From Aquimarina spinulae (GTDB taxonomy: Bacteria; Bacteroidota; Bacteroidia; Flavobacteriales; Flavobacteriaceae): DNA of 64,000 bases. Position numbers and translations under genes: made by a program. This document shows positions 11,276 through 36,753 of the stretch, piece after piece. The notes under the pieces were generated by a model. That model was not told the origin of the DNA. It made no database searches and saw nothing but the letters and a program-made list of their open reading frames with translations. Positions within the stretch are counted from its first letter, which is position 1; every line of letters starts with the position of its first letter. The stretch covers positions 981,501 to 1,045,500 of the forward strand of contig NZ_CALSBP010000002.1 of assembly GCF_943373825.1 (NCBI RefSeq), in the 5' to 3' direction.

Positions 11276-11302
11276 CTATCTGCGAAAAAGTCTATATAAA
11301 TT

Positions 11303-11333
11303 TTGCCAGCAATATAAAAAACAACTATATTTG
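11303..11333 (+). promoter_or_regulatory. Promoter of tRNA-Arg
   Basis: TTG (11303-11305), exactly 20 bp, then TATATTTG (11326-11333). This is a textbook Bacteroidetes promoter, and the tRNA's first base is 13 nt after the -7 box. Confidence 0.85.
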
Positions 11334-11345
11334 CACCCGCAAAAA

Positions 11346-11419
11346 GGCCTCGTAGCATAACTGAATAGTGCACTTGATTACGGCTCAAGAGGTTGCAGGT
11401 TTGAATCCTGCCGAGGTCA
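11346..11419 (+). tRNA. tRNA-Arg (anticodon ACG)
   Basis: A 74-nt cloverleaf. The acceptor stem is GGCCTCG/CGAGGTC with one G-T pair, and the D stem is GCAT/GTGC. The anticodon stem is CTTGA/TCAAG around loop TTACGGC, giving anticodon ACG (A34 normally becomes inosine). The T stem is GCAGG/CCTGC around TTTGAAT. The discriminator is A and CCA is not encoded. The last 16 bases plus one flanking base reappear three times downstream. Confidence 0.95.
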
Positions 11420-17996: not shown

Positions 17997-18449
17997 ATGA
18001 ATACACAAAAACAAAAACATATAGAAGATATACTTAAGTCACATTCATTAAAAAAGACTTCGGCACGAATAGAAATGCTTAAAATATTTCTAAATTATGA
18101 TTACGCATTATCTGCAAAAGAAATAATTTCTCATATGAAGGTAAGTCATGACCGGGTAACCATATATCGAACATTAGGTGCTTTTGAAGAACATGGGATA
18201 TTGCATAAAGCTTCTGAAGATAGTCATGGCATACGATATGCAATGTGTAGTCATGAATGCCCAGAAGAAGTACATTCTGATGAGCATGTTCATCTTATTT
18301 GCGAAAATTGCTCACAGACTTATTGCCTCGAAGATATTAAAATTCCTAAAATCAAAGTTTTAGAAAAATTTCTGGCTCAAAAAATAAACTATACCATTAA
18401 TGGCGTTTGTAATGCATGCCTCTCTAGTTTAAAAACAACTAATGGATAA
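17997..18449 (+). CDS. Fur-family metal-responsive regulator (Fur/Zur-like)
   Basis: A 150-residue DNA-binding repressor. The winged helix (about 10-85) includes KTSARIEMLKIFL and VTIYRTLGAFEEHGILHK, the Fur-family recognition helix. The dimerisation/metal domain has HVHLICENCSQTYCLED, with His-x-His and a Cys-x2-Cys site, and a second Cys pair near the C-terminus (GVCNACL). The two CxxC pairs suggest a structural zinc. The Zur versus Fur choice cannot be made from this alone. The gene overlaps the methyltransferase start by eight bases. It lies about 600 bp from the end of the metallophore-like operon on the other strand and is a candidate regulator of it (an inference). Confidence 0.9.
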   Translation: MNTQKQKHIEDILKSHSLKKTSARIEMLKIFLNYDYALSAKEIISHMKVSHDRVTIYRTLGAFEEHGILHKASEDSHGIRYAMCSHECPEEVHSDEHVHLICENCSQTYCLEDIKIPKIKVLEKFLAQKINYTINGVCNACLSSLKTTNG

Positions 18450-19050
18450 TCCCTGGAACACTCATTATCATTATTTTGATCAAAAAAAACACCCTCCAGC
18501 GGCTACTCTACGTAATGCATTAGCTCTTTCTCAAAAACTACAAATTAACCCACAAGACAGGCTAGCTGTTGATTTGGGTTGTGGGAATGGTGTAGATACT
18601 TTTGCTTTACTACAGGGTAAATGGAATGTCCTTGCTATAGACAAACAAAATGAAGCCTTATTGCGAATTAAGGAAAATACTCCGGATACATACAAACAAC
18701 AGCTTCAGCTTAGTTTAAATTCTTTTGAAAACATAGATGCACTTCCTGATTGCCAACTTATTAATGCCACTTTTAGTTTACCATTTTGTCACCCCGATCA
18801 TTTTGATAGATTATGGAATATTATTACTTCTTCAATACCTAAAAAAGGAATTTTTAGTGGTCATTTTTTCGGCACCAATGATGCCTGGAGTTCTAATCCT
18901 GAAATGACTTTTCATACCGAGAAACAGATAAAAGCAATGTTTAATCATTTTGATCTTATTCATTGTAAAGAAATAGAAAAACAAGGCAAAACCATATCCG
19001 GAAAAGAAAAATATTGGCATGTATTTCATATAGTAGCTCAGAAAAAATAG
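18442..19050 (+). CDS. Class I SAM-dependent methyltransferase (TehB-like)
   Basis: A 202-residue soluble methyltransferase. The SAM-binding motif I is AVDLGCGNGVDT (about 43-54), followed by an acidic residue at the end of strand 2 (VLAIDKQ) and NATFSLPFC as motif IV. The opening block WNTHYHYFDQKKHPPAATLRNAL and overall size resemble TehB/thiopurine-type methyltransferases, which act on small toxic molecules. It overlaps the fur-like gene by eight bases and is probably co-transcribed. The substrate is unknown. The gene ends 22 bp before the convergent MATE gene, with no terminator visible between them. Confidence 0.85.
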   Translation: MDNPWNTHYHYFDQKKHPPAATLRNALALSQKLQINPQDRLAVDLGCGNGVDTFALLQGKWNVLAIDKQNEALLRIKENTPDTYKQQLQLSLNSFENIDALPDCQLINATFSLPFCHPDHFDRLWNIITSSIPKKGIFSGHFFGTNDAWSSNPEMTFHTEKQIKAMFNHFDLIHCKEIEKQGKTISGKEKYWHVFHIVAQKK

Positions 19051-19072: not shown

Positions 19073-20437
19073 TTATTTCTGAAACGCCACTCTTTTAGAA
19101 GTAGAACTTAACAGTTTTTTAAGTTCAATAGAAGATAGTATCCATAATACTAATGCATAGATTATATTTTCTATAACAAGCGTATAATATATCCCATTAA
19201 TACCAAACATTTTGGGGAAAACCCAAATTAAAGGTAGAAACAAAACAATTTGTCGGCTTATCGGGACTATACTGGCTAGTTTTCCTTTTCCTACTGATTG
19301 AAAAAAAATAATACTACTCGAGGCAATAGGCAATAGAAATAATACTGTCAAAATAATTCTTAGATTAAAGATTTCCTGAGTACTTAACACCATATCAGGA
19401 AGCATTAATTGAATACAAAATTCGGGAAAAATCAACACGGGAATCATAAAAACCAGTATAAATAAAACACCACCTATCCTAAATGTTTTTATAGCTTCTA
19501 TACATCTCGATATATTAGACGCGCCATAATTGATTCCTATTATAGGTTGCAAGGGTTGCAATAAACCTAATACGGGTATTGCCAAAAATGAAAATAACCT
19601 AAATGCAGCACTAAAAAAAGCAATATCATGAGCAGTACCATACCATGCTAAAGTTCTAAATAAAAAAAACTGTTTTATAACATTAGACAATTGCATAACA
19701 AAAGCAGATGTACCTACACTAATTACATCTTTTATGATGTCTTTTTCAATCTTAATACTAAATTTTCCAGTTGCAAACGATGCTTTTTTCTTAACAAAAT
19801 AGAGCGAAGTTGCAATCGCATATATAAGCATAGATATGATACTACTTAAGGCAGCACCAGCAATACCCATAGAAAAGGTATGAATAAATAAAGGGGTTAA
19901 TGTAATATTTATTACGACAGACATTATTGTAAATGTCATTGCTTGTCTAATTTTACCTTCGGATCTAATAAGCCCATTAGCAGAAAGGCCATGGATAGTA
20001 AAGAACACTCCCAGAATAGATATTTCAAAATAAGAAACCCCATAATCCAGCATAGCTCCCGTAGCCCCCATAAAAACTACTAATTGCCGAGTAAAAAGAA
20101 CACCTACAACCATTAATATCATCGAGCTTATAAGAGAAAGCGCGATCATATTAGGAATTACTTTTTGTTGTTTTTCTATATCATTGGCACCAATAGCTCT
20201 ACTCAAAACCGAAGACGATCCAGCTGCGATAAAAACAGTTACGCTGGTAATAACCAGAGTAAGCGGAAATAATAACGAAATCCCGGCGAATGCTTCTGCA
20301 CCAATAAAATAACTTACATATATAGCATCTACCAGAGAATTAATAGAAATTACCATCATCCCTAATATTCCTGGTAAAGAAAGTTTAAGCATCAATTTCC
20401 AGAGATTATCTTTTAGTATATCTGGTTGTTTCTTCAC
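19073..20437 (-). CDS. MATE-family efflux transporter
   Basis: A 454-residue inner-membrane exporter with about 12 hydrophobic segments in two related halves. Family features include KLSLPGILGMMVISINSLVDAIYVSYFIG at the start of half one and YGTAHDIAFFSAAFRLF...LQPIIGINYGA in half two. MATE pumps use Na+ or H+ gradients to expel small molecules. It is the last gene of the minus-strand operon beginning with the Cys-rich peptide, two bases after the DUF5916 gene stop. A MATE pump with a TonB-dependent receptor in a peptide operon recalls methanobactin loci (MbnM/MbnT), so export of the mature peptide product is a reasonable inference. Confidence 0.92.
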   Translation of the reverse strand: MKKQPDILKDNLWKLMLKLSLPGILGMMVISINSLVDAIYVSYFIGAEAFAGISLLFPLTLVITSVTVFIAAGSSSVLSRAIGANDIEKQQKVIPNMIALSLISSMILMVVGVLFTRQLVVFMGATGAMLDYGVSYFEISILGVFFTIHGLSANGLIRSEGKIRQAMTFTIMSVVINITLTPLFIHTFSMGIAGAALSSIISMLIYAIATSLYFVKKKASFATGKFSIKIEKDIIKDVISVGTSAFVMQLSNVIKQFFLFRTLAWYGTAHDIAFFSAAFRLFSFLAIPVLGLLQPLQPIIGINYGASNISRCIEAIKTFRIGGVLFILVFMIPVLIFPEFCIQLMLPDMVLSTQEIFNLRIILTVLFLLPIASSSIIFFQSVGKGKLASIVPISRQIVLFLPLIWVFPKMFGINGIYYTLVIENIIYALVLWILSSIELKKLLSSTSKRVAFQK

Positions 20438-20439: not shown

Positions 20440-22650
20440 CTAAAACTGTTTCAAAAAAGTAATTTTACTAATAAATTGTTGGTTCCTGTCTATGGGATCT
20501 AATGATGATTTTATTTGAGTATCGTTAAACACCAGGTAAATAAAAGACAAAGGCATATATTCCCAACTAAATCGTGCATTCCACCTTCCTTGTTTATTAA
20601 ATGAATTATACTGATAAAAGGTGGATAGTTGCATTCGGGGGGAGAGTGCTAAACGAAGGCTGGCAGAATACAAATTGGTTTCTAAATTTTCTCTTAGTAT
20701 TCCTATTTTCCTAAGATTATTATATTCATAATCTGCAGTTAAAGCAATATGAGGTAAAGGAGCGTATCGCATACCAGCTGTAATTGTATTTCTATTTCCA
20801 TTATAGAAACCTCCCCATTCATATTTAAAAGAAGCCGACAATTTTCTTGATCGATCAGAATTATATCGAACAAATTGTCGGGTATAGAAATACCTTTTTT
20901 GCTCGATAGCTAATCCCAGAGGTTTGAAATCAAAATTTATATTTTGCCATGATGGTGTAACCGAGTATTCTACAAAACTGTTGTCTTTAAAAAATACATA
21001 TACAGGAAAAAGATACAGGCTTGCCTGCTGAAACTTTTCGGGATTTTGAAAATCATGATAGTAATTTGCAAAAAAACCTGGATCCCAACGACGAATCCAT
21101 GGAAGCTTTTTAGGTCTTACAATAAAATACCCTCCAGGATTGTGTTTTATAACATCATTCTGAAAGACAAAACCTGTACCTGGATTATAATTCTTGCTTA
21201 CAAAATTTGTAGACCACCCCCAATACATCTTATTGCTTCGATATCCAGAAAAAACACTCCCTGCTTCTCCCCACCTATTGGTTTGTTTATCATATGTAGA
21301 CGAAATTAGATAAGAAATTGTCCATTTATTTTTTATTCGAATTAAACCATCTATAGTTGCTGTTGTATTATTGTTTTCTTCGACATCTAATACTTTACTA
21401 TTTTCATCTAAGCGATGATTGATCATAACACCTACATTGTTTTCTTTTCCAAAATTCTGGAGGTAACGAAATATTCCAAAATTCGCACTGGGTGCATTAT
21501 CGGTATTTCTTTGATGGATATATAACCCTGCCAGAGTTCTTTTATCGTTTCTATCGGTAAAACGTGTTCCTACATTAATCGGAGCAGGAACGGCATTAAA
21601 TTTACCTTCTAACCCAATTTTTCTACTAAAAAAAGGACGAACCAAATTATTGGAGGCTCCTGCCCAAATCCCTGAGTTTTCTAAGAAAAATTGCCTTCGT
21701 TCTGGAAAAAATATATTAAACCTATCAAGGTTGTTAACTGCTCTATCTACATCTGCCTGTGCAAAATCTGTATTAACAGTTACATCTAAGACCGATCGTG
21801 GACTTATTGCCCATTTTGCATCCCCTCCAAATTTTAGTTTACTATCAGAGTTTTTTTCTCCTTCTGCATTAGTCGTAGTGTATTGATATAAAGAATAAGG
21901 TTCTATTCTAAGGTTTGCTCCAGAACTGGGAAGTTCTAACCCTTTTAATTGCGCAGCATATGTCATCCTATACGGAGAAAAAGATTGCGGGATGGCAGGA
22001 AAAACGGTTCGCTCATAATCTCTTCTTGCCAATCTGCTAAATGTAATTCCCCAGGCAACATCTTCTTCTTTTTTCTGACTGTCATATCGAATAGATGTAA
22101 AAGGTATGGCAAACTCTGCATAGTATCCTGTATCGGTTCTATGGGTGCGCACAGACCATAGTGCATTCCAATCATTATCGGTACTATTATCATTAAAATT
22201 CTGTAAGTCTCGTTGATTACCATACGGAGTGGTTTGAAACGAGACACAGTATTGTTTGAGATTTTGAGGATCTAATTGAATACTAAAAATATCATTCTCA
22301 CCATCTCTAAAATCTCTTCTTAAATCTTGTACACGAACTCCTTTTCTCCCTAATGAGTCTTCACAAAACACGCCTACGTATAACTGTTTCTCATCAAATA
22401 AGACACGTACTTCAGTTTTATACGTATAAACTCCTCCCTGTCGGGGTTCCATTCGAAAAAAATCTTTGGTAACAGGAGCTTCCTGCCAATCAGACTCGTT
22501 TAATTTGCCATCGATTTTTATAGAACCCTTTGCACGTTTTGCAAAAACCTGGGGAGGATCACTAGGGGGTGGAAAATTTTGATTTGTATGCTGTGCAATA
22601 CCAATCATATGTTGCATAATAACTACTACGATACAAAGTAAATTTCTCAT
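20440..22650 (-). CDS. DUF5916 outer-membrane protein with N-terminal CBM9-like domain
   Basis: A 736-residue protein with a signal peptide (about 1-20, ending GIAQ). The N-terminal CBM9-like domain (about 35-225) has KGSIKIDGKLNESDWQEA and LFDEKQLYVGVFCED. The rest (about 240-736) is a predicted beta-barrel rich in alternating aromatic strands, ending in ISKITFLKQF, typical of DUF5916 proteins. Members are common in Bacteroidetes and most have no defined function. The ATG overlaps the upstream permease stop by four bases. In this operon it may form part of an envelope-spanning path with the ABC permeases and TonB receptor (an inference). Confidence 0.85.
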   Translation of the reverse strand: MRNLLCIVVVIMQHMIGIAQHTNQNFPPPSDPPQVFAKRAKGSIKIDGKLNESDWQEAPVTKDFFRMEPRQGGVYTYKTEVRVLFDEKQLYVGVFCEDSLGRKGVRVQDLRRDFRDGENDIFSIQLDPQNLKQYCVSFQTTPYGNQRDLQNFNDNSTDNDWNALWSVRTHRTDTGYYAEFAIPFTSIRYDSQKKEEDVAWGITFSRLARRDYERTVFPAIPQSFSPYRMTYAAQLKGLELPSSGANLRIEPYSLYQYTTTNAEGEKNSDSKLKFGGDAKWAISPRSVLDVTVNTDFAQADVDRAVNNLDRFNIFFPERRQFFLENSGIWAGASNNLVRPFFSRKIGLEGKFNAVPAPINVGTRFTDRNDKRTLAGLYIHQRNTDNAPSANFGIFRYLQNFGKENNVGVMINHRLDENSKVLDVEENNNTTATIDGLIRIKNKWTISYLISSTYDKQTNRWGEAGSVFSGYRSNKMYWGWSTNFVSKNYNPGTGFVFQNDVIKHNPGGYFIVRPKKLPWIRRWDPGFFANYYHDFQNPEKFQQASLYLFPVYVFFKDNSFVEYSVTPSWQNINFDFKPLGLAIEQKRYFYTRQFVRYNSDRSRKLSASFKYEWGGFYNGNRNTITAGMRYAPLPHIALTADYEYNNLRKIGILRENLETNLYSASLRLALSPRMQLSTFYQYNSFNKQGRWNARFSWEYMPLSFIYLVFNDTQIKSSLDPIDRNQQFISKITFLKQF

Positions 22651-24086
22651 GTTTTCTTTTTTTTCATGATTGTAAAACCTATTCCGAAAAATAAGATCGT
22701 CGCGATACTAACTTTTACTATTCCTAATAAAATAAGAGTACTCCATTTTACTTCATCTGTTTTGATTTTGAAGGATGGTAATCGCGAATAGTCCTCACGT
22801 CGTATAGGTTTATCCCAAAACAATTTCTGAAAATAGAAGTTTGAAATATTACGATGGAATGATTCGATAGAAGTATGAAACTGATGAAAGGTATTAAGAT
22901 CTGTTTTTGCAATATGAATAAATATACTCTGCATATTTACCGCAGGATTTACCCAATGAAAATCTGATATCCATTTATTTCTCTGATATACCTGATTGTT
23001 ATATTGATCTACATCTTCTTTACTATGCATATCTTTTAAGGATGTTAGTGCTGCATATGCTTTTGCAAGTGTGTTATTATGGATAAGGCTATCTGATCCC
23101 TGAAGGTGTGGATTATGTGCTAAAAATTCTTGAATAACTTCTTTGGCTTCGTTTTGATCTTCTTCATTTTCGAGACTTGTTCTGCGAGTAATTTCTGCTA
23201 GTGATGTACTGTCTAATGGATACCTGGTAGTTACCCATACGTTAAGCACTGCAGGGATTATTATAAGAAAGAGCAGCCATACTCCAGCTGCCGTAATCGC
23301 CGTAAAAGACGAATTCATTTTAAAACTTACAATAAAGAAGAGTACTGCAAACCAAAATGCGCAATACATAATAACGCTAAGTATCCAAAAAAGAGCCGAC
23401 AGGCTATTCTCAGAATTCATAATATTACCAGAAGTGGTTAGCCCTATCATAGAAATAAGAAGTGCTAATCCTGTAATAAGGAAGAAATATAATATGAGTC
23501 GTACTATAATAATTCTCCTGATGTTTACAGTTTGTATATGTAATAATGGTAGTACTCCACTCTCTTTTTCGCCAGAATATAAGCCATAGGAAAATGCTAT
23601 AATCAATAAAGGAAAGAGGTAAATTAGTACAAATGATAAATCAAAATTCCCAACGTATAGTTTTACGGGATTTGCGATCTCGTTTTCAAAAAGTTGATAG
23701 TGTAAACTCATTCCTGTAAGACGGTAATAATAAGGATGTAAATCGCATTGTCCAATTGCCAAAGCAGCATAATCATGAGGGTGTAAAATCGCATGATAAC
23801 CATGTCTATGCCATGCATAGGCGGCGTCTGAAGCAATTTCTAGTTTCTTTTTTTGTGTTACAGAAGCTAATTCTTCTTTAAAACTTGCCTGATATTGATG
23901 GAATTCGGTTTTTTCAATTTCCATTACATCCTGGATAGTATCCCGTTGTACTTTTATCTCTGATTGCCCATAATAAATTGAATAAAGGCCCAGTAAAAAA
24001 GTACAGCCCAGCATAACTATCTGAAAAGTATTTCTGGTAAAAGCAATCCACTCATAACGCAATAATGTTATTGTTACTTTACTCAT
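22647..24086 (-). CDS. ABC transporter permease, DUF3526 family (second)
   Basis: A 479-residue membrane protein. There is one N-terminal helix (about 24-40), a large extracytoplasmic loop (about 45-150), and helices at about 150-290. A second long loop (290-440) ends in a helix near the C-terminus. The EKESGVLPLLHIQTVNIRRII segment after the third helix is the coupling region typical of ABC-2 permeases with DUF3526. It is paralogous to the next gene upstream and both overlap their neighbours by four bases, so the two permeases likely form a heterodimer served by the ATPase at 25521-26222. Confidence 0.85.
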   Translation of the reverse strand: MSKVTITLLRYEWIAFTRNTFQIVMLGCTFLLGLYSIYYGQSEIKVQRDTIQDVMEIEKTEFHQYQASFKEELASVTQKKKLEIASDAAYAWHRHGYHAILHPHDYAALAIGQCDLHPYYYRLTGMSLHYQLFENEIANPVKLYVGNFDLSFVLIYLFPLLIIAFSYGLYSGEKESGVLPLLHIQTVNIRRIIIVRLILYFFLITGLALLISMIGLTTSGNIMNSENSLSALFWILSVIMYCAFWFAVLFFIVSFKMNSSFTAITAAGVWLLFLIIIPAVLNVWVTTRYPLDSTSLAEITRRTSLENEEDQNEAKEVIQEFLAHNPHLQGSDSLIHNNTLAKAYAALTSLKDMHSKEDVDQYNNQVYQRNKWISDFHWVNPAVNMQSIFIHIAKTDLNTFHQFHTSIESFHRNISNFYFQKLFWDKPIRREDYSRLPSFKIKTDEVKWSTLILLGIVKVSIATILFFGIGFTIMKKKKT

Positions 24087-25516
24087 AATACTGGTTTCTT
24101 TTTATGTGATGAATAGTTAAGAAGAAAGAAAATAACCACCCCCCAGCAACATAAGGATAATAGTTCTATTAGATATTGGCGTAGTATCTCATACGCAGAC
24201 ATTGTCTTATAGTGAAAACCTTTAACCGTTTTCCATAAATTTTTACCTGCTTTATATTCATAAAACTCGCCATACTTAGAGTTTTGTGCCATATCAAGAT
24301 TCATTTTCCGAACTAATTCTCTGCGATAATTTTCTGTTATTTTTTGAAAATGAATAGAAGTATTGAGATCGGTAGCAGCAAGCCCCATAGATACATTACG
24401 TACGGCTAAATATGGAGTAATAAAACTGGATAAGCTACTGATTCGATTCTGATGATTAAAAATATCGATTAACCTTTCCCAATGTATGTCATATACTTTA
24501 TTGCCATAATCTTCTCCGGCTTGCATTCGCATTCCTTCAAAATTTAGAGGTAGTTTATGAATTGAATCTACTTTATAGTGCTGTAAATATTCTTTTTTTA
24601 ATTGCTGCTCTCGGGCAATTTTTGGATTTTTTCCATCTAAGCCATTTCTAATATCTTTTTGAATAGCTTCTCTATACATTTTCATAGAAGGTAAAGGATA
24701 GAAGCTTTCTCCAAAATTAGCCGTTGTTTTTGGGATAATAATGGTAAAAAGAATCCAACAGGTTAATAGGGTAAGTAACGCATTTCTTCCTGTTGATGAT
24801 TGCATAGATACCCATACCGAAAAAGCAACAAAAATCGATAAGTATATGGCATACACTATTAGTAGAAATAATACTCGTAACCCAACATCAGGGATACTAC
24901 CAGAATCTGTTATCACGGTAGATAAAATAAAAGCGATTACAAAAAACGGAATCACTATAGCAAAGAGAATACTTACATATGCTATTATTTTCCCTTTAAT
25001 TATAGAGGAATAAGATACTCCCTGGCTTATTAATAATTTGAGAGTTCCATTTTCTCTTTCTTCGGTAAATGCAGTAAATGCCAAAAATATAATGAGTAAA
25101 GGAATTAATATTTGAAATACCATTGCTGCACTAAGTTCTCCAAACCGAATCATACTGCTATGATCTTGTGCCGGACGAAACATAAATTCGTGTTGGTAGT
25201 GAGCTTCAAGGTATACAGAAGTTCCTGTATAGGTATCTAATCCAAAATCAAATAAGCTTAGTATAGTTTTTGGTTTAAACACAAAAGTCCCATAATGAGC
25301 AGCTATATGAGGGTGTTTGTCACCTTGCTCTAACCATTCTGTTCTATTTTCTTGTTTAGCCAGTTCTATAATAACTCGTTGTTGATTATAGGCTACATAA
25401 CCTGTGTATAGGGCGATACTAAGTAACCCCATGATTACTATAGCAAGAGCAGCTATTAGCTTTTTCCGCAATGCGATTTGTATTTCTTTTTTGGCAATCA
25501 GTAGTACTGCATTCAT
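24083..25516 (-). CDS. ABC transporter permease, DUF3526 family (first)
   Basis: A 477-residue ABC-2-type permease. The N-terminal KKEIQIALRKKLIAALAI leads into helix 1 (about 20-40), then a long extracytoplasmic domain (about 45-140). Several helices follow, with the conserved cytoplasmic block TEERENGTLKLLISQGVSYSSIIKGKI. A second external domain spans about 280-440 and a final helix ends near 468. It has the same architecture as the following paralogue (22647-24086), with a four-base overlap. It starts four bases after the ATPase gene. NosY and related permeases of this family accompany periplasmic maturation or export systems; the substrate here is unknown. Confidence 0.87.
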   Translation of the reverse strand: MNAVLLIAKKEIQIALRKKLIAALAIVIMGLLSIALYTGYVAYNQQRVIIELAKQENRTEWLEQGDKHPHIAAHYGTFVFKPKTILSLFDFGLDTYTGTSVYLEAHYQHEFMFRPAQDHSSMIRFGELSAAMVFQILIPLLIIFLAFTAFTEERENGTLKLLISQGVSYSSIIKGKIIAYVSILFAIVIPFFVIAFILSTVITDSGSIPDVGLRVLFLLIVYAIYLSIFVAFSVWVSMQSSTGRNALLTLLTCWILFTIIIPKTTANFGESFYPLPSMKMYREAIQKDIRNGLDGKNPKIAREQQLKKEYLQHYKVDSIHKLPLNFEGMRMQAGEDYGNKVYDIHWERLIDIFNHQNRISSLSSFITPYLAVRNVSMGLAATDLNTSIHFQKITENYRRELVRKMNLDMAQNSKYGEFYEYKAGKNLWKTVKGFHYKTMSAYEILRQYLIELLSLCCWGVVIFFLLNYSSHKKKPVL

Positions 25517-25520: not shown

Positions 25521-26222
25521 TCAATTGTGCATATGTTTCAAATACATTTTTTCAAGATCCTGAAAACTAACGTCTTTGGATTCAAACTTTTCTAACAATA
25601 CCCCTTCTTTCATTATACCAATGTGTGTACCTGTGTCTTTTGCTCTAAAAAGATCATGTGTTGCCATTAATGTGGTTACTCCTCTTTCTTTCATATTTAA
25701 TAATAGTTCAGAAAATTCATTACTGGCTTTGGGATCTAATCCAGATGTAGGCTCATCTAGCAGTAATACTTTTGCTCCTCGAGCTCGGGCCAGTGCAATA
25801 CCCACTTTTTGGCGCATTCCTTTAGAGTAACTACTTACTCTTTTGCGTATAAAATCTTTCTGCAAGCCAGATTGTGTTAATAATTCTTCCAGCTCACTTT
25901 TGTTTTGATTTCCTCCGCCTAATCCACAAAAAAAATGGAGATTTTCTAGCCCGGTCAGGTTTTTGTATAACATCAGGTTTTCGGGAATATAGGATAGCAA
26001 TTGTTTGGTTTCCTTAATATGCATGGTGACATCCATATTATTGATCATAGCTTTACCATGAGTTGCATCTATAAAATTTAGAAATAGATTAATAGTAGTC
26101 GATTTCCCTGCTCCATTTGCTCCTAACAGGCAAAAAATTTCTCCTTCTTTTATCGTAAGATTTAAAGATTTTAGAGCAGTGAAATCTCCATATTTTTTTG
26201 TTAAATCAATTGCTTCAAGCAT
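25521..26222 (-). CDS. ABC transporter ATP-binding protein (CcmA/NatA type)
   Basis: A 233-residue ATPase. Walker A is GANGAGKST and the Q-loop region is LLSYIPENLMLYKNL. The signature is YSKGMRQK (a variant of LSGGQ common in ABC-2 exporters), Walker B is VLLLDEPTSGLD, and the switch histidine lies in ATHD. It is the motor for the two DUF3526 permeases encoded immediately downstream. It begins seven bases after the DUF4374 gene. ABC-2 systems of this type act in export or in energising membrane processes. Confidence 0.93.
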   Translation of the reverse strand: MLEAIDLTKKYGDFTALKSLNLTIKEGEIFCLLGANGAGKSTTINLFLNFIDATHGKAMINNMDVTMHIKETKQLLSYIPENLMLYKNLTGLENLHFFCGLGGGNQNKSELEELLTQSGLQKDFIRKRVSSYSKGMRQKVGIALARARGAKVLLLDEPTSGLDPKASNEFSELLLNMKERGVTTLMATHDLFRAKDTGTHIGIMKEGVLLEKFESKDVSFQDLEKMYLKHMHN

Positions 26223-26229: not shown

Positions 26230-27414
26230 TTATTTTAGAGTGATTAACCCTGTTATATAACCACTGGTGCTTTTCATTTTCTTTGAAACATTACCCGAAC
26301 TAATTTCATAACTGTACAAAGCATCTTCTTCTGTACCTGCAATGGCAAAAAGAACCTCATTATCAGAAACTTGTTTCATAAATGATGTTCGAGATGCTGC
26401 AAATGTATTAGGTAGAGAGGCCTCTAAATCCCCTAAATCTTGAGCTTTAGAAAGATCAATTTTTCGATATCTAAAAGAAGGATTAGCTCCATCTGTACCA
26501 AAAAAGTTATCATCATTTTCTGAAACGGTAGTACATACCATTCCATTACTAAAATGATATAATCCAAAACACGTATTACCAGTGGCAGCTTTCAGATCGA
26601 AAAAATAATCTGCGTCAAATTCTGTTTCTCCTGCTTTGATTCTAAGAACACCACTAGGTTTACCACTAAACAGCCCCGAAGCCTGAACATAAATATTTCC
26701 TTGAGCATCTGTAGTCATAATTTCGGCAGTAAGTGTATTAAAAAGTGTGGCTGTACGATCATCTGTTATAATTTTACTTAAGGTGTTTGTATTTAAATCT
26801 ACCACAGCAATCTTAGCAGAACCTGATCCTCCAAAATCATTAAGTGCGATAAATAAATTGGTATCTCTTATAATCATATCGGAATAAAAAAGGCCATCCC
26901 CAGCATCTTTTAGATTTATTTCTCCTGTAATTCTCATCGTAGTAGGATCAAATTGAATAACTTTAGATATTCCACCTCCAACTGTAGCGTAACCTGTAGT
27001 TTCATTAAGGATCTCGAGAGAAGAAAAAGAATTAGATCCTGGAATTATTATTTCTTGATCCAAAACCGCTTTACCAGTTTTATCAAACACAAATTTTTTC
27101 ATAGTTGCGGGAGCACCAAAACCTGCTGTAAACATCGATTTCCCGTCTGAGTATATAGAAGAAAACTGTCCTACTTCTGTACCATTGGTATTATCTATCG
27201 AAGTTTGATTAAGATCTGTAAGTCCTTGTAAAAATGTCGTTTTTACATCTCCTGCACCTGATACTATGGCCAGGCCATGGTTTATTTTTACCGTTGTTTC
27301 TTCTGGAGGAATAGAATTATCATCGCTTTTACATCCTGATAGTATACTTATTGTTGTAAAAATAAATCCTGCAAAAAGTATGTGTGTTGCTTTTTTTAAC
27401 GTGTTCGTGTTCAT
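26230..27414 (-). CDS. DUF4374-like surface lipoprotein
   Basis: A 394-residue lipoprotein. The signal peptide ends in the lipobox ILSGC (Cys28). The body is repetitive beta-structure resembling a beta-propeller, with segments such as FSSIYSDGKSMFTAGFGAPATMKKF and RSSFMKQVSDNEVLFAI-type blades. DUF4374 lipoproteins are typically encoded beside TonB-dependent receptors for iron-type compounds in Bacteroidetes, and here it is 16 bases downstream of one. A role as a substrate-binding surface partner of the receptor is a reasonable inference. I assigned the family from pattern and context, not from a search. Confidence 0.75.
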   Translation of the reverse strand: MNTNTLKKATHILFAGFIFTTISILSGCKSDDNSIPPEETTVKINHGLAIVSGAGDVKTTFLQGLTDLNQTSIDNTNGTEVGQFSSIYSDGKSMFTAGFGAPATMKKFVFDKTGKAVLDQEIIIPGSNSFSSLEILNETTGYATVGGGISKVIQFDPTTMRITGEINLKDAGDGLFYSDMIIRDTNLFIALNDFGGSGSAKIAVVDLNTNTLSKIITDDRTATLFNTLTAEIMTTDAQGNIYVQASGLFSGKPSGVLRIKAGETEFDADYFFDLKAATGNTCFGLYHFSNGMVCTTVSENDDNFFGTDGANPSFRYRKIDLSKAQDLGDLEASLPNTFAASRTSFMKQVSDNEVLFAIAGTEEDALYSYEISSGNVSKKMKSTSGYITGLITLK

Positions 27415-27430: not shown

Positions 27431-29806
27431 TTATGATTTAAATAGTGAGGTTTTTAATTTAATATGCCATGATCTTCCTGGTTTTTGAACTCCAAAATTA
27501 TCATAGGCTTGTTGATCAAATATGTTGTGAGTTTCGAGAGTTACAGTATATTGCTTATGCTTTCCTGTGTATGCAATCCCTATATTATGAAGCCATTGAG
27601 TTGGTACGACTAGTTTATCTTCTTTTCGTCCATCAATCTCCCAATATCTAAAAAATTCTTCTACATAACGGGTAGACCACCATACTTGTAATTGGTCATT
27701 AGGTTTCATCAAACTATCTCTGATAATTTGAATTTCTCCGTTTCCGAACAGGTACGGTTTATTTGGTAATCGAGCCCCAAAATAGCGATCATTAGATACT
27801 CCTGAAGCTTCTTTTTTGGATCGGTTTCGTAAATCCTGAAAAGTGCCATTTAGTGTAATATTTAACCATGATAATGGCCGCATGCTAATTTCGCCTTCGA
27901 CTCCTATAATTCTTGTTTTTAATAAATTTTGATAGGTACTCAAAACAGGAGGAGGAACTGCTTGAAGTATAATAATATTCTCTATTTCTCTAAAAAAACC
28001 ATTAGCTTCTACACTCCATGTTTCTTTTTTAAAACTCCCACCAAGATTAATATTATGACTTCTTTCGGGTTTTAAATTAGGATTGGCCGCTACTGCGACA
28101 CTAAAATCTCCTAAAGTTTCAATTCTATCTGGTAACCTTGTGGCATACTCATAAGATAGTTTACTTAAAAAATTGCGATTAGGTCTCCAGGAAAAGGATT
28201 GACTTCCTCCAAATTCTGTATTTTGCTGTTCTATCTCATCGATTTCATTATTTTCAATTTCAAAACCTTTTGCGTTATAGTGATATAATTTTACAGCACT
28301 GTGACTTACTATTTTTTTATCCAGAAAATCTTTTTCCAGACCTATCCCACTAACAATTTTATTGATATACACAGGGTTTTTATAGTAATCATTTCCATAA
28401 AACGCAGCTGCAACGGGATCTTCTCCTGATCGTTCAAAAAAGGAAGCCACACCATTAAAGAGAATGCGTGAAGTAGTATTGGCATTATATTGAAGATTAA
28501 TTCTTCCCGAAATATTATCCCCGGTAAGTTTTAATTTATTTTGAGAAGGTGTGATCTCACCTCCAGAGGTTCTCTGCCCAATAACTTCTCCTCTCCAATT
28601 GTATATATTAAGTGTTGTATCATTAAAATTGGTAATGATTCTATTGTACCCTATGTAAAGATTAGCATCAAGATTTTTTATAAGATCTTTTTTTTCATAT
28701 TGTAATGCATTATTATGTACAGAAACTTTGTTAAGTGCTTCTCCATAAGGTTGTCTCATTTCGAAATTATGCTGAATCTCATCATATAAATTTGCATAAG
28801 AAAAATTGAGTGCTATATAATCTGCCCAGGATTGGTCTATCAACCCTACATCACCTTTTATCATATAACTTCTAAAAGCATCATGAAATTTTTTTGCAGA
28901 AATTGATTCCGGATTACCTTGTTCATTAATAAGTGTTACATCGTTTAGTCTGTAATTATTATCTGAATACGTATAATACCCTGTTAACCCAGCTGTTAAA
29001 CCAGAGGGCATTACTTTTCTCGCATTTACTGTTGCCTGCCATGTATTAAATGAACTATACGCTACAGATGTGTCAAAAAAATCATACTTCTCTTTTCTTG
29101 TAACTATATTAATAGCACCTCCTAATGCATCTGCTCCCATACTTACAGGAACTGCACCTTTATATACTTCCATTCGTTTAATAAGGTTAACAGGAAGCAT
29201 AGCCAGAGAGGGGCCTATTCCTAACTCTTCTACTGGAAGTAAAAAATCCATAGGAACTCCATTCACAAATAGTTTTACTTGCCTGCCGCTTAACCCTTGA
29301 ATAGATACTTCGGTGGCATTTCCAACTCCCCCACTCTGTCTTATCTGTACTCCCGGTACTGTACTTAAAAGATCAGATGTAGTGACAGATCTATTATTAA
29401 GTTTTTTGGCTTCTATAACAGATACTGTTGTTGTGCTATTTCTAATTTTTGTCGCTTCAGATGTACTTAATAGTGTTACTTCACTTAATTCATCAAGTTG
29501 TTTAGCTAGGCGAATTGTTACTTTTATTTTGGGTTGATTTTTAAGTAGTGTTATCGTTTTTTGTTGCGTTTGGTATCCTATATGAGATATTACAATTTGG
29601 TAGTCCCCTGATCTTAAATGTTCTATCCTAAAAGTACCTGAATCATCGGATACAGTACTTTTATTCATTTCAGGAATATATATATGGGCAGTAGATAAAG
29701 GAGTTCCTTTTTCGTTGGTTATCGTACCAGAAATTACTCCTTCCTGACCTATAGAAATGATTGGGATTAGTAAAAAAACAATTATAAGATATGAGATATA
29801 TTGCAT
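27431..29806 (-). CDS. TonB-dependent outer-membrane receptor
   Basis: A 791-residue receptor that imports a ligand using TonB energy. After a signal peptide (about 1-20) comes a carboxypeptidase-regulatory-like domain (about 24-100, SGTITNEKGTPLSTAHIYI). The plug (about 115-235) has TTSDLLSTVPGVQIRQSGG and ALGGAINIVTRK. A 22-strand barrel ends near YDNFGVQKPGRSWHIKLK, with a terminal aromatic-type residue pattern. It resembles siderophore and cobalamin-type receptors rather than SusC (no partner SusD). Inside the operon it could reimport the peptide product or a metal complex, as MbnT does for methanobactin (an analogy, not a demonstration). Confidence 0.92.
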   Translation of the reverse strand: MQYISYLIIVFLLIPIISIGQEGVISGTITNEKGTPLSTAHIYIPEMNKSTVSDDSGTFRIEHLRSGDYQIVISHIGYQTQQKTITLLKNQPKIKVTIRLAKQLDELSEVTLLSTSEATKIRNSTTTVSVIEAKKLNNRSVTTSDLLSTVPGVQIRQSGGVGNATEVSIQGLSGRQVKLFVNGVPMDFLLPVEELGIGPSLAMLPVNLIKRMEVYKGAVPVSMGADALGGAINIVTRKEKYDFFDTSVAYSSFNTWQATVNARKVMPSGLTAGLTGYYTYSDNNYRLNDVTLINEQGNPESISAKKFHDAFRSYMIKGDVGLIDQSWADYIALNFSYANLYDEIQHNFEMRQPYGEALNKVSVHNNALQYEKKDLIKNLDANLYIGYNRIITNFNDTTLNIYNWRGEVIGQRTSGGEITPSQNKLKLTGDNISGRINLQYNANTTSRILFNGVASFFERSGEDPVAAAFYGNDYYKNPVYINKIVSGIGLEKDFLDKKIVSHSAVKLYHYNAKGFEIENNEIDEIEQQNTEFGGSQSFSWRPNRNFLSKLSYEYATRLPDRIETLGDFSVAVAANPNLKPERSHNINLGGSFKKETWSVEANGFFREIENIIILQAVPPPVLSTYQNLLKTRIIGVEGEISMRPLSWLNITLNGTFQDLRNRSKKEASGVSNDRYFGARLPNKPYLFGNGEIQIIRDSLMKPNDQLQVWWSTRYVEEFFRYWEIDGRKEDKLVVPTQWLHNIGIAYTGKHKQYTVTLETHNIFDQQAYDNFGVQKPGRSWHIKLKTSLFKS

Positions 29807-29875: not shown

Positions 29876-30796
29876 TTATAAAGTAATTTCCTGAATCAAT
29901 TCTTCTGAACTCATTTCCTCAAAAATTACTTTTTCTTTCTCAGACATTTGATCTTTATGAAGTAATCCATTTGATCTATCCCATAACTGCTTTGTTTCGG
30001 CAGTTAATTGATAGGCTTCATCTATATCTTTTTTTAGCAAACAGGTTAATCCATCATTTTTACGTAATTCGAGTATTTGTTGGTTTCGTAATAGATAAGA
30101 TGATGATAAATTGGTTAGAGAGATCACTTCTCTTTCTTCATTGTATAATAGAAATTCTTGATCCGAAGAAAGCTCTAGCGTTGTTTCTTGTAGCGGTTCG
30201 ATTTCAAAAACACGTACTTTAGTTTCTAATTCTTCTTGTGTATTTTGATAACATTCAACAATTTTTACAGGAGTCTTCTCTGGTGAATGATTCATAATTA
30301 CAGCTTTCTTTTTTTCACCTTCTATAATCTTATCCAATGTTATTTTTTCAACAAAAAAGAAATCATCAGCTGCGGTTTTAGAATGCTTTATTTCTCCAGA
30401 ACTATGTACTTCTGAAACAAGGGTGTATTTCCCTAAAGGTGCATCCTTAGGAATTGTGTATGTAAAATAATAATGTCTTCCGGATTGAATATTCTTGAGT
30501 ATTTGTATTAATCGTTCTCTTTTACAAGCTCCGCTCAAATAATCTGCTAATAACAGTAACGGAACATTTTTATTTAAATATTTAAGTGTTTGTTTTTCCT
30601 GTTTTGTTTCTTCGTTTATAGGGTCTGGTAATCCTAAAACATGTTCTTCAAAAAGCATCGTAACATTTCCGTTAGGGTCTTTAACACCAATTCTAACCCA
30701 AGGAAACACATGTACATTTTTTAAGGCAGAGATATTAAAGTTCCAGTGAATAGTAACGGTCTTACCAGGGATAGCTCTTTTTGGAAAAATACTCAT
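29876..30796 (-). CDS. Unknown 306-aa protein with an Ig-like N-terminal half
   Basis: I do not recognise this family. There is no signal peptide or membrane segment, so it is probably cytoplasmic. The first half (about 1-152) looks like a beta-sandwich: GKTVTIHWNFNISALK, WVRIGVKDPNGN, and GRHYYFTYTIPKDAPLGKYT. The middle (about 155-235) is another beta region. The C-terminus (about 255-306) has the pattern YQLTAETKQLWDRSNGLL followed by an acidic helix, loosely recalling the end of a PqqD-like recognition domain used to bind RiPP leaders. That last point is weak. The gene starts two bases after the WH...HH gene and is 69 bases from the TonB gene. It is a candidate for handling or maturing the Cys-rich peptide. 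Confidence 0.7.
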   Translation of the reverse strand: MSIFPKRAIPGKTVTIHWNFNISALKNVHVFPWVRIGVKDPNGNVTMLFEEHVLGLPDPINEETKQEKQTLKYLNKNVPLLLLADYLSGACKRERLIQILKNIQSGRHYYFTYTIPKDAPLGKYTLVSEVHSSGEIKHSKTAADDFFFVEKITLDKIIEGEKKKAVIMNHSPEKTPVKIVECYQNTQEELETKVRVFEIEPLQETTLELSSDQEFLLYNEEREVISLTNLSSSYLLRNQQILELRKNDGLTCLLKKDIDEAYQLTAETKQLWDRSNGLLHKDQMSEKEKVIFEEMSSEELIQEITL

Positions 30797-30798: not shown

Positions 30799-31278
30799 CT
30801 ATTTTCTTAATGCTTTAAGCTGTTCTTTACTATATTGGCTTGCATACTGCCTGAACCATTTTTCAACTGTTTTTTCGCCCAAATAATCATAGGTCACAGA
30901 TAGTAAAAACTCTAACTTTTTTAAATACTCTTGTTTAGCTTTTTCCGGGTCTTTCATCATATTTCTTTTACGATCTTCTTTTTCCTTTTTTGAAGCAGGA
31001 ACATGATGAAAATAAGCTGTGTTAAAGTACTCCTTACTAAACTCGTGATATTGAGGAGTAAAAAGAATCATATTATGCCACATTTCGTCGATAATCAGAA
31101 GATCATCTGGTATAAAAACTCCTGGAATCTGACTTATAAATAGAAATTTGAGGGTTTCATTAAAAATGTCCCGTACTTCTTCGGTTTCTAACTGGTACAT
31201 ATCATTAAACCTCGAAATAATGTCTTCGTTTCTAAACTCAAGAATATTTGCTAGCTGTTTTTTATCTAATTTTTTCAT
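30799..31278 (-). CDS. Small protein with WH...HH motif (glycine-rich-domain protein-like)
   Basis: A 159-residue helical, soluble protein. Its centre reads IIDEMWHNMILFTPQYHEF followed by AYFHHVPAS. This matches the D-xx-WH-xx-L-x-T-xx-Y ... HH-x-P pattern I associate with bacterial relatives of GRDP/DUF1399 proteins. The aspartate, tryptophan-adjacent histidine, and His-His pair could bind a metal (an inference). No catalytic role is established to my knowledge. It is the first gene after the Cys-rich peptide gene and the leaky-terminator-like hairpin, the usual place for a RiPP maturation factor. Confidence 0.7.
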   Translation of the reverse strand: MKKLDKKQLANILEFRNEDIISRFNDMYQLETEEVRDIFNETLKFLFISQIPGVFIPDDLLIIDEMWHNMILFTPQYHEFSKEYFNTAYFHHVPASKKEKEDRKRNMMKDPEKAKQEYLKKLEFLLSVTYDYLGEKTVEKWFRQYASQYSKEQLKALRK

Positions 31279-31295: not shown

Positions 31296-31325
31296 AAAAC
31301 GGTAGTACGACAAATCGCACTACCG
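31296..31325 (-). terminator. Weak terminator/attenuator between peptide gene and downstream operon
   Basis: On the minus strand CGGTAGTGCGA pairs with TCGTACTACCG (11 bp, one G-U) around a TTTG loop, followed by only four T's. It lies in the 58-bp gap after the peptide gene stop. Such a partial terminator would give more peptide mRNA than operon mRNA. Confidence 0.65.
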
Positions 31326-31336
31326 CAATACAATGT

Positions 31337-31447
31337 CTACAATGTAGATGAACAATGTCCACAGTTACTACAATGCGTACCTCCAACTGGATTTGCTGAT
31401 TTTTCGGCCAGAATCTGAGAGATTAGTGCTTCTTTGTTAATTTTCAT
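31337..31447 (-). CDS. Short Cys/His-rich peptide, candidate RiPP precursor (36 aa)
   Basis: A 36-residue peptide starting MKINKEALISQIL, with a leader-like helix (about 1-19) and a Gly22-Gly23 motif. After it comes the tail THCSNCGHCSSTL: three Cys (26, 29, 32) and two His (25, 31) within eight residues. This fits a leader, a double-glycine cleavage site and a core peptide with unusual metal-binding or modification potential. It is the first gene of the ten-gene minus-strand operon ending with a MATE pump. No LanB/LanC, radical SAM or DUF692 (MNIO) gene is near, so the modification, if any, is not a known class. The annotation as a real gene rests on reading frame, position, composition and operon logic. 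Confidence 0.75.
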   Translation of the reverse strand: MKINKEALISQILAEKSANPVGGTHCSNCGHCSSTL

Positions 31448-31463: not shown

Positions 31464-31469
31464 ATTATA
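31464..31469 (-). promoter_or_regulatory. Possible -10-like TATAAT box of the peptide operon
   Basis: TATAAT on the minus strand lies 16 bases before the peptide's ATG. The usual TAnnTTTG box is absent, and no good -33 element is visible, so the promoter may need an activator bound at the palindromes upstream. Confidence 0.3.
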
Positions 31470-31506
31470 CCTACTCTATTTTTTAAGGTTTTCGGCTCGC
31501 CCTTTG

Positions 31507-31559
31507 TTGCAACAGTGTTGCAAGATAGAGAACCTGTTTTTCAGAAGCAACAATGTTGC
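31507..31559. promoter_or_regulatory. Two GCAACA-N-TGTTGC palindromes upstream of the peptide gene
   Basis: A perfect 17-bp dyad TTGCAACA-G-TGTTGCAA (31507-31523) and a perfect 13-bp dyad GCAACA-A-TGTTGC (31547-31559) are centred 38 bp apart. They lie 60-112 bp upstream of the peptide start. The shared half-site GCAACA marks a pair of regulator sites. The binder is unknown; a dimeric activator is plausible given the poor promoter. Confidence 0.7.
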
Positions 31560-32144
31560 ATTTAAAGAAATGTTAAAAAAATGATTTCAATTGTTAATGG
31601 CTTAGTCCCATTTTTTGGTGAGTTTTCGAAACTTTATGTTATTAACTCGATCGATGAAATCTAGCAAATACCCTAATGATGAATCCATTATCTTAGTGTA
31701 TTCTTCGTTTTGATTATGTCAAATTTTAATACATTTAAATTAGGTTATCAAAGCTCTTTATAATTTTAGATCTATACTTTTTGAGAATACATTGAGGGAA
31801 TTAATTTTATTTGTAGGATTGAAATATGTTAATTGGTTTATATAAATAAAGTTTTAGTAATACATGCAGATAATGATTTAAAATTTCTATTATAAAACAT
31901 ATGGTTCTTGTACTAAAATGTTAATGTAAATCGTTAGATTTTACTTCTATTTTTTTTAAGATTTCTAATACTTTATTATAATTTGCTCTAAAGTTGTGCG
32001 TTAATTACAATTAATCAACTTTTAGTGGTTTGCATAATTTTTCTAAACACGCAACAGGTTAAAATAACACTTAATAATAACCGCAAATAACTTATTATCA
32101 ATCTATTAGCATTATTTAAATTTTTAAAAAACAACATTCACAGT
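31560..32144. other. Gene-free divergent region
   Basis: AT-rich sequence between the peptide operon and the HAD gene. A 28-codon frame at 31582-31665 has no support. No repeats were found other than the two palindromes at the left edge. Confidence 0.6.
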
Positions 32145-33432: not shown

Positions 33433-34239
33433 TTACTTACATGCATTTAGGGATGATACCATCTTAAAGTTAAACATAGTATTGTTATTAGCAAGGTTTT
33501 GGGTTTGGATATCTTGATAAATGCTCCAATGTGCTACGATCTTTTCTTCTTCTAATCTAAACAGATCATATAATGCAGAATTTTTTCTGGCAAAAACTCC
33601 TTCACTAATGGATAGAACAAAGTTTCCTTCTCCAAAAACGGCATGCTGTTTTTTATAACGAGGAAAAAGTGATTCATCTTGAATTGCATGAATAAGATTC
33701 TGAACTCCATCTGCCAGTGCTACATTATGTTGATGAAAATTAGTTTGAAAAAAATTTGGTATGGTTTCTACTATCGTTTCTACATTTTTGTTTGTTAGCG
33801 TACTAAATAGCTCGGTGATTATAGATTTATTACTTTCTGTTTTCTTTAGGTCCTTTATTTTGGTCTCACCGTCAAATAAAGATCTACCAGATAAGTTTGG
33901 GGGAGCTATTGCTGTCATAACATTCCAGTGTTCGGCAATTAAGCCATGGTAATCAAAACGAATGATATGAAAAGCTACTGCCTCATTAAACCCAAAAGGA
34001 GTAGCATTTATCCATTTGTGATGCATAATTATGTGCTGATCATCTTCTAACATGCGTATATTTTCAATTTTACTACCATACTCTTTTAATTTAGGTATCA
34101 TAGAAATAAAAGCTGCTCTTCCCGACGGAACCCTAGGATTGTGTTGGATATAGTTTTCATGAACCATTTCCTTTATTATTGATTCATTGTACTGGCTAAC
34201 CGCAGTATGATACGCTTTAGCCTTTTCTTTATTGTTCAT
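33433..34239 (-). CDS. NTF2/SnoaL-like protein with two domains
   Basis: A protein of about 268 residues from the Met at 34239; an in-frame Met at 34326 would add 29 residues. Each half has the SnoaL/NTF2 pattern: first SIIKEMVHENYIQHNPRVPSG, then HQHNVALADGVQNL, with HHKWINA and DLFRLEEEKIVAHWSIYQDIQ at the ends of the halves. SnoaL-like proteins cyclise, hydrate or bind small molecules. I prefer the later start because a purine-rich stretch precedes it. It lies 76-163 bp after the FAD monooxygenase, probably in the same operon. Confidence 0.8.
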   Translation of the reverse strand: MNNKEKAKAYHTAVSQYNESIIKEMVHENYIQHNPRVPSGRAAFISMIPKLKEYGSKIENIRMLEDDQHIIMHHKWINATPFGFNEAVAFHIIRFDYHGLIAEHWNVMTAIAPPNLSGRSLFDGETKIKDLKKTESNKSIITELFSTLTNKNVETIVETIPNFFQTNFHQHNVALADGVQNLIHAIQDESLFPRYKKQHAVFGEGNFVLSISEGVFARKNSALYDLFRLEEEKIVAHWSIYQDIQTQNLANNNTMFNFKMVSSLNACK

Positions 34240-34402
34240 ATACTTTTTCTTTATAAGTTGATCTACATTTTTGTATGTGGTTAAATTAAAAATTGCAGCA
34301 ATGAGATATATTAACCCGTTGTGCATTTGAGATGCTTTAATTCAAAATTTGTCAATTCGAGAGGCTATTCTGAAAAACCACTCGAATTGACACTCTTTTT
34401 AG

Positions 34403-35878: not shown

Positions 35879-36708
35879 TTTGTATATATAAGATGTGGAT
35901 TATCTGGTGTTTTCCCTAGTAATTGTACTCTTCTAAGGTGTCTGGGAGCGCCTTTGGTAAAAGGTTCGCGACCATGTAATAAAGTGCTATTATCAGAAAA
36001 TACAATATCTCCTGTTTCCCATCGATGGGTATAGAGATATTCTGGAGCGTAGAGCGTTTTATTAAGATTTTGAAGAAAATCTCCGATTTCCTGTTTTGGA
36101 ATCCCCTCGACTTCAAAGCCTGGATGATTAACAAACGATTCATCGCTATGATTTGGAGGTTCACAATAGCGAATTACAGAGTACTCTTTTTCCTGGTGTT
36201 TATTAAGGAGCGGAGCAATCGTTTTGCTATCATAAAACTCCATTTTTCGTGAATACACACAACTTACTTTACTCCAAGATTCTTTAGTATTTTCTGAGAC
36301 TTCTTCTAAAATCATTTTTGTATTGGTAAAAGTTGTTCCTCCTCCATTATCAATTCCAGGAGAACTTACACAATGAAATACTTGCGTCTCGGGAACTTGT
36401 TTACGATACATACCATCCCAATGAAGAGGAATATAAGTATTGTCAAAAATATGGTCTCCGGGATTATCCTGAACAACAAGTTCCAGAACTTTTCCGAAAG
36501 GCCACAAACAAATTTCTCCGAATTTTTCGCAATAGTCAGAGAAATCTTCGGCGCTGTCAAAACTCTGAAACCCTCTCAAAACAATTAGATGTTCTTTTGA
36601 TAGCACACTTTTCAGTTCATTTATATCTAAATCCCGAATATCTTCCTTTCCGTTAATGGGCTCAATTAATAAACCAAATGGATTTAATTTTGTGGTTCTA
36701 AAATTCAT
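35875..36708 (-). CDS. isnB: Fe(II)/2-oxoglutarate oxygenase, TauD/TfdA family (IsnB/PvcB-like)
   Basis: A 277-residue non-haem iron oxygenase. The iron ligands are visible in HWDGMY (His-x-Asp) and LLHGREPF (second His), and the 2-oxoglutarate arginine is in RHLRRVQLLG. In isonitrile pathways PvcB/IsnB uses this chemistry to desaturate and decarboxylate the aromatic isonitrile carboxylate. It is 45 bp after the IsnA-like gene and overlaps the monooxygenase by four bases. The family is clear; calling it the IsnB partner follows from the neighbour, not from a unique motif. Confidence 0.87.
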   Translation of the reverse strand: MNFRTTKLNPFGLLIEPINGKEDIRDLDINELKSVLSKEHLIVLRGFQSFDSAEDFSDYCEKFGEICLWPFGKVLELVVQDNPGDHIFDNTYIPLHWDGMYRKQVPETQVFHCVSSPGIDNGGGTTFTNTKMILEEVSENTKESWSKVSCVYSRKMEFYDSKTIAPLLNKHQEKEYSVIRYCEPPNHSDESFVNHPGFEVEGIPKQEIGDFLQNLNKTLYAPEYLYTHRWETGDIVFSDNSTLLHGREPFTKGAPRHLRRVQLLGKTPDNPHLIYTK

Positions 36709-36753
36709 ATTTTACTCTTTTAACTTTGTTTTTCTAAACTAGTATTCTACACC

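Follow-up and report, generated by a model that had tools for sequence, protein, structure and literature searches.

The 64,000-nucleotide stretch of the Aquimarina spinulae genome analysed here (contig NZ_CALSBP010000002.1, positions 981,501 to 1,045,500; referred to below as the window) contains a run of ten minus-strand genes, from 31447 to 19073, that begins with a gene of only 36 codons. A first-pass annotation, made by a model from the letters and their reading frames, had described a short Cys/His-rich gene at the head of a ten-gene run with almost no gaps, and had proposed it as a candidate RiPP or metallophore precursor. The layout agrees with this description. The peptide ORF (31447-31337, minus strand) starts with ATG and encodes the 36 aa sequence MKINKEALISQILAEKSANPVGGTHCSNCGHCSSTL, whose tail HCSNCGHC does hold three Cys and two His in eight residues. 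Successive genes of the operon are separated by gaps of 58, 2, 69, 16, 7 and 4 bp; the next two pairs overlap by 4 bp each, and 2 bp separate the final pair. The features of the locus are as follows.

31546..31560, no strand assigned: palindromic box 1, one mismatch to TGCAACANTGTTGCA; putative Zur box
31521..31527, minus: TANNTTG, candidate -7 promoter element overlapping box 2
31507..31523, no strand assigned: palindromic box 2, TTGCAACACTGTTGCAA, perfect; putative Zur box, 38 bp from box 1
31468..31505, minus: DUF805b RNA (Rfam RF02914), 5' UTR element; 40.2 bits, gathering cut-off 35.6
31337..31447, minus: putative precursor gene, 36 aa; leader KEALISQIL, core HCSNCGHC
31299..31326, minus: hairpin between the peptide and WH genes; -18.8 kcal/mol, z -3.6
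30799..31278, minus: WH protein, 159 aa, PF27765, all-helical, putative maturation protein; invariant DEMWHN and HHxP
29876..30796, minus: 306-aa protein with an N-terminal beta-sandwich and a faintly PqqD-like C-terminus
27431..29806, minus: TonB-dependent receptor with a CarboxypepD_reg domain, XusA-like
26230..27414, minus: DUF4374 lipoprotein, XusB-like
25521..26222, minus: ABC transporter ATPase
24083..25516, minus: ABC-2 permease with DUF3526
22647..24086, minus: second ABC-2 permease with DUF3526
20440..22650, minus: CBM9/DUF5916 protein, probably outer-membrane
19073..20437, minus: MATE family exporter
18442..19050, plus: class I methyltransferase, convergent with the MATE gene, conserved neighbour
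17997..18449, plus: Fur-family regulator adjoining the methyltransferase gene, conserved neighbour

The order peptide, WH, 306-aa protein, receptor, lipoprotein, ABC genes, outer-membrane gene and MATE recurs, with local changes, in Aquimarina, Fulvivirga, Tenacibaculum, Algibacter, Flavivirga, Reichenbachiella, Pedobacter and Mucilaginibacter. The methyltransferase and Fur-family pair also stands beside the MATE gene in all five further loci for which the far end was fetched (four from Aquimarina and one from Fulvivirga). The hairpin between the peptide and WH genes has a z score below -2, against mononucleotide shuffles, in 37 of 37 sequences tested; its sequence varies among relatives while its pairing is kept. 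Intergenic hairpins of this kind often raise the output of a precursor over that of the enzymes encoded behind it. Just upstream of the peptide operon (33433-37773, minus strand) lies a second small-molecule cluster, with genes for a PvcA-type isonitrile synthase (PF05141), a TauD dioxygenase, a FAD-binding hydroxylase and a SnoaL-like protein.

The peptide gene and its linkage to WH

The tail pattern HCxNCGHC was found in 13 of 66 Aquimarina genomes, which are exactly the 13 that carry a close copy of WH (at least 67 percent identity), and in none of the remaining 53. Six further genomes of the genus contain only weak WH matches (28-33 percent) and lack the tail pattern. Since pattern and close WH coincide in the same genomes and are joined by relatives elsewhere (Fulvivirga, Tenacibaculum, Pedobacter and others), the peptide gene is not a chance reading frame: it is real and conserved. 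Related operons without the peptide gene, or with its frame broken, would have spoken against the first-pass annotation, and none was seen in the genus, as all 13 genomes with close WH have the peptide.

A profile search of species genomes, 84,980 in all from bacteria and archaea, gave 71 loci with WH homologues. The first-pass annotation had proposed asking whether similar short genes always precede the WH gene, and the answer is positive for 66 of the 71 loci, spread over several phyla, when the upstream ORF is defined by an ATG start, a length of 25-110 aa, at least 2 Cys near its end and a position within 400 bp 5' of the gene. Applied to 799 other genes of the same loci, this definition is satisfied for 109. 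For three of the five loci that fail, the contig extends only 115-176 bp on the 5' side, the others being L046 and L063; one of the 66 positive loci (L053) probably owes its ORF to chance. This linkage supports the reading of the peptide as a putative precursor, and the arrangement of a short, conserved, encoded peptide adjoining candidate maturation genes is that expected of a RiPP.

The features of the peptide that are held fixed were examined in 38 core loci, of the Bacteroidota operon type, in which the 306-aa gene is present and enough upstream DNA is available. Two His-Cys pairs (HCx4HC) are kept in 37 of these, the middle Cys (HCxxCGHC) in 32, and Gly-Gly immediately N-terminal to the core (GGxHC) in 21. 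Thus the two His-Cys pairs, four residues apart, are the fixed part of the peptide and the Gly-Gly is not. The Gly-Gly motif noted in the first-pass annotation is not general, and it argues only weakly for a double-glycine leader in this operon. Codon differences between pairs of 19 loci are mostly synonymous in the core (806 synonymous versus 347) and not in the leader (873 versus 1141). A candidate leader pattern around KEALIxxIL matches 51 of the 66 peptides versus 5 of the 109 background ORFs, the pattern having been written after the peptides were seen.

The closest named relatives of the WH protein are from Aquimarina; within the family few genomes carry the gene, 6 of 299 with this one included. 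No solved structural relative of WH was found. Short Cys peptides also precede the WH relatives of Shewanella, Alteromonas, Marivirga and cyanobacteria, in these cases without the 306-aa gene, and some Shewanella have three to five peptide copies before WH. Peptide and WH are therefore the smallest unit shared by all locus types, which points to WH as a protein that acts on the peptide. There is a fair chance that it defines a new class. For the 306-aa protein, a 24-column alignment of the C-terminus to PqqD has P 1.6e-4 and a probability of 50, and PqqD is absent among the Pfam matches listed and in a PDB profile search. Leader-recognition domains of the PqqD type occur in many RiPP systems, although they are not a requirement.

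Pfam and NCBIfam searches of the ten operon proteins gave no match to the known RiPP maturases LanB/C/M, YcaO, radical SAM and MNIO/DUF692, the NCBIfam result for the ABC ATPase referring to its best 25 matches. The first-pass annotation had made this statement for the whole window; it holds for the ten operon proteins and some of their neighbours. Nor was a leader peptidase recognised among the ten genes. At an Epilithonimonas locus (L049) a prolyl-oligopeptidase-family gene (10444-11358) lies directly 3' of WH, and its product could be a leader peptidase. Relatives of this gene are present in Chryseobacterium and Flavobacterium loci. After WH, an Alteromonas locus (L058) has an HlyD-type protein and an ABC exporter with a C39 peptidase, and a C39 exporter (Peptidase_C39) also stands beside WH in the cyanobacterium Tolypothrix (L065). 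In marine Gammaproteobacteria (L058, L059, L062, L064, L067, L068 and L070) WH follows one to five copies of a peptide gene; the encoded peptides combine a double-Gly-like leader with a Cys core, of which FCxELC is an example.

Palindromic boxes and the DUF805b RNA

Two palindromes flank the candidate promoter of the peptide operon. The TANNTTG sequence is the consensus of the Bacteroidota promoter -7 element, and it overlaps the second box in 10 of the 18 core loci (of 38) that have paired boxes, 37-41 bp apart. Of 38 core loci, 27 have the general form GCAA[CT]N3[AG]TTGC in the 450 bp upstream, versus 25 of 2485 windows elsewhere. With at most one mismatch, the stricter form TGCAACANTGTTGCA is found in the 600 bp upstream at 20 of 38 core loci, at 1 of 30 other loci and in 14 of 1917 windows. 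Since the box is found at so few of the non-core loci, and since most of the peptides there have no HC pairs, WH itself need not be concerned with metal. In 12 cluster-bearing genomes, which were chosen from the 71 because the palindrome had already been seen before the operon, TGCAACANTGTTGCA occurs 50 times (the operon's own sites included) versus 2 for the reversed pattern. The genome of A. spinulae has 24 sites versus 8 at up to 2 mismatches.

The nearest genes were read in 40 fetched regions around box sites, a subset of all sites; four of these regions are the operon itself in other genomes. The box stands before genes for CobW-type GTPases in A. longa (L131) and Mucilaginibacter (L141), with Pfam cobW confirmed in both, and before ZIP transporter genes in two Fulvivirga (L123 and L127, Pfam Zip confirmed). 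It is also found at Fur-family genes that face MerC-like genes, both in A. spinulae (L149) and in Aquimarina Aq78 (L135), and a perfect box lies at a Fur-family gene of genome G144 (L095). Further MerC-like genes and TonB receptor genes are near boxes as well. Pfam matches to FUR were obtained for L149 and L095 and to MerC for L124 and L140, so that cobW, Zip, FUR and MerC are each represented twice. The operator is thus shared with zinc-uptake genes, as in a Zur regulon. CobW and ZIP genes are typical Zur targets, expressed at zinc starvation, and the position of the palindrome before them makes it probable that it is the Zur box of these bacteria; the boxes would then bind a zinc sensor.

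Other sites fit less readily. Perfect boxes precede S8 (subtilase-family) peptidase-like genes in Aquimarina (L128, L129, L133 and L146, with Pfam checked for L129 and L146), which have no obvious tie to zinc uptake, and some sites lie inside genes. In A. spinulae itself no CobW or ZIP gene was seen in the flanks read around sites with 0-1 mismatch. The box is absent from the 450 bp upstream in 11 of 38 core loci. Three of these (L043, L044 and L045) have it at about 0.8-0.94 kb. L027 and L029 each have three variant boxes in the gap that separates a Fur-family gene from its neighbour, which is a MerC gene in L029, where the boxes are upstream of the operon, and a pyridine-nucleotide oxidoreductase gene in L027. 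For the remaining six (L018, L028, L030, L032, L035 and L042), three patterns gave no box within 4.2 kb.

Behind the boxes, the 5' UTR of the peptide gene contains a DUF805b RNA, a cis-regulatory family (RF02914), above the gathering cut-off; its place here differs from the family in general in following zinc-type boxes and preceding a peptide gene. The RNA is found before the peptide in five of seven further core loci (L016, L018, L024, L032 and L042) and scores below cut-off in the other two (L039 and L044). In L032 it occurs twice, before each of two tandem peptide copies. In this tandem duplication (L032:9579-9793, Tenacibaculum ovolyticum) each peptide gene has its own RNA. Seven loci of other types include one with the RNA, L049, where it is present in two copies. 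Above-cut-off matches are found at eight places in the A. spinulae genome and at none in 14 control genomes. One of the eight ORFs behind these RNAs is this peptide, two more are likewise short Cys-bearing peptides, and the other five encode larger proteins of secreted or lipoprotein-like appearance. Judging from these ORFs, the RNA seems to mark genes for exported products in this genome, suggesting that such products share a control exerted through it. The locus offers a clear set of target genes for this unexplained RNA. The RNA ends roughly 15-35 nt before the start codons (L198-L205 in the genome, and 31468-31505 in the window).

The receptor and lipoprotein pair

The receptor profile matches the solved structure 9gbc_A with an E value of 1.8e-163 over positions 1-777 of 779, the next solved relative scoring 8.6e-23. 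Chain B of 9gbc is a DUF4374 protein, and we read this entry as the XusAB complex of PMC13142918. The lipoprotein profile has a full-length match to XusB (9hqe) with E 1.4e-11; designed beta-propellers score nearly as well (2.3e-10), though without a single passing stretch. The match of the lipoprotein to DUF4374 (PF14298) is a narrow pass, at 25.8 bits with a cut-off of 25. PMC13142918 describes XusAB as importing iron-siderophores, including foreign siderophores.

Of 39 core loci, 34 have the receptor and lipoprotein genes downstream in the same orientation. The five exceptions are two loci truncated by contig ends (L012 and L019), the decayed L033, L036 with the pair on the opposite strand and L041 without the lipoprotein. 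Outside the core type (32 loci) only L048 has genes of both families. The pair resembles XusAB(C) of Bacteroides thetaiotaomicron in combining a TonB receptor that carries a carboxypeptidase-like N-domain with a DUF4374 surface lipoprotein. It differs from that system, which is known for iron, in standing in one operon with the putative precursor of its ligand, a putative maturation protein and exporters, behind zinc-type boxes; moreover, no XusC-type PepSY protein was matched among the ten operon proteins.

A putative zinc metallophore and its alternatives

Taken as a whole, we favour by a slight balance of probability the reading that the operon makes a ribosomal zinc metallophore, matured by WH, exported and re-imported through the XusAB-like pair. 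At zinc shortage, a Zur-type repressor of the Fur family would leave the two palindromic boxes around the promoter, and the hairpin behind the peptide gene may allow the peptide to be made in excess over the downstream proteins. WH, perhaps aided by the 306-aa protein, would recognise the leader at KEALIxxIL and modify or otherwise mature the HCxxCGHC core. Once its leader had been removed, the peptide would be exported by the ABC transporter, the MATE protein or both. Outside the cell the two His-Cys pairs could bind Zn(II), and the XusB-like lipoprotein would catch the metal complex for import by the XusA-like receptor. The suggestion of a metallophore has gained from the zinc-regulon-like boxes and the XusAB-like pair; as to the metal, zinc is now a better guess than copper.

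Several known systems share parts of this arrangement. Methanobactin is a copper-binding RiPP whose short Cys-bearing precursor, TonB receptor and MATE exporter are encoded in one operon, and the same three components are together here, the MATE protein giving a weak match to the MbnM model (23.1 bits, cut-off 285). The operon differs in having a WH family protein in place of any match to MbnB (MNIO/DUF692) and in boxes that point to zinc. The system would be a kind of ribosomal metallophore that works like the methanobactin type and departs from it in the enzyme, since no MNIO protein was matched among the ten operon proteins. MNIO-modified Cys peptides such as the bufferins are likewise ribosomal, Cys-bearing and tied to metals, and are described in PMC12452194 as buffers against copper stress, whereas the present operon is of a shortage type and has no MNIO match. 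Double-glycine peptides with C39 exporters share the leader-core layout, and the WH relatives of L058 and L065 stand beside such exporters, but the ten operon proteins gave no Peptidase_C39 match, and the Gly-Gly is not general among core loci.

One competing explanation concerns the metal. The product could be a ribosomal copper or iron metallophore, comparable to methanobactin or a siderophore, under a Fur-family regulator that senses another metal or the oxidative state. A Cys/His core could bind Cu(I), iron-siderophores are the ligands of XusAB in PMC13142918, and for the Fur-family protein beside the operon, as for a 126-aa one beside a box, the Fur, Zur and PerR models score about equally and all below cut-off. 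We consider this explanation unlikely because the same box stands before ZIP and CobW genes in relatives, and because the ten operon proteins contain no match to the MNIO/DUF692 enzymes.

The remaining explanations keep zinc and change the role of the peptide. It may be an antimicrobial or a signal, secreted at zinc shortage, which would enter target cells or come back by way of the receptor, metal binding being secondary. The bacteriocin-type C39-peptidase ABC exporters beside WH in Alteromonas and a cyanobacterium, where the peptides lack HC pairs, would suit such a function, as would the occurrence of the DUF805b RNA before two other short, exported-looking Cys peptides in this genome. The frequency of the receptor-lipoprotein pair and of the HC pairs at core loci fits the uptake of a metal complex better, however, and no recognisable immunity gene is present among the ten operon proteins, so that we judge this role improbable. 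Still more improbable, in our view, is that the peptide binds or senses zinc without modification, with WH and the 306-aa protein as chaperones or sensors and no RiPP chemistry at all. Two His and two Cys could bind Zn(II) unaided, and the searches for known RiPP maturases gave no match. Yet WH remains a close partner of the peptide even where the other genes differ, its invariant W, H, D, E and HH residues resemble an enzyme or metal site, and the peptides share a leader pattern apart from the core, the latter with the reservation that it was drawn from the peptides themselves.

If the zinc metallophore reading is true, genome mining could be used to find a zinc scavenger of ribosomal origin and simple mutation of its gene to study it, a XusAB-type receptor would gain a ligand made by the same cell, and WH would represent a new type of protein for peptide maturation. 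The known zinc scavengers staphylopine, pseudopaline and coelibactin are built enzymatically from small units and are not encoded as peptides. A search of the open-licence literature found no published report of the present system. A wider reading, which we put forward tentatively and on balance doubt, is that a hitherto undescribed class of ribosomal peptides with Cys cores, present in Bacteroidota, Gammaproteobacteria and cyanobacteria, is defined by WH as its maturase, and that the Bacteroidota branch makes the first known gene-encoded zincophore, with a dedicated XusAB-type receptor and joint control by zinc box and DUF805b RNA.

Some smaller features of the relatives of this locus may be mentioned. 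In L033 and L037 the operon looks decayed, with a short WH, a 306-aa gene that is split or missing and no receptor; both loci retain the whole peptide gene, the box and the Fur-family gene. In L018, L027-L030, L032 and L035 the peptide gene is preceded, about 0.9-1.1 kb upstream of WH, by a gene for a His/Cys protein of 100-115 aa, which belongs to no Pfam family in the one case scanned. By eye, a similar His/Cys protein is encoded near the Fur-family gene and box of L095.
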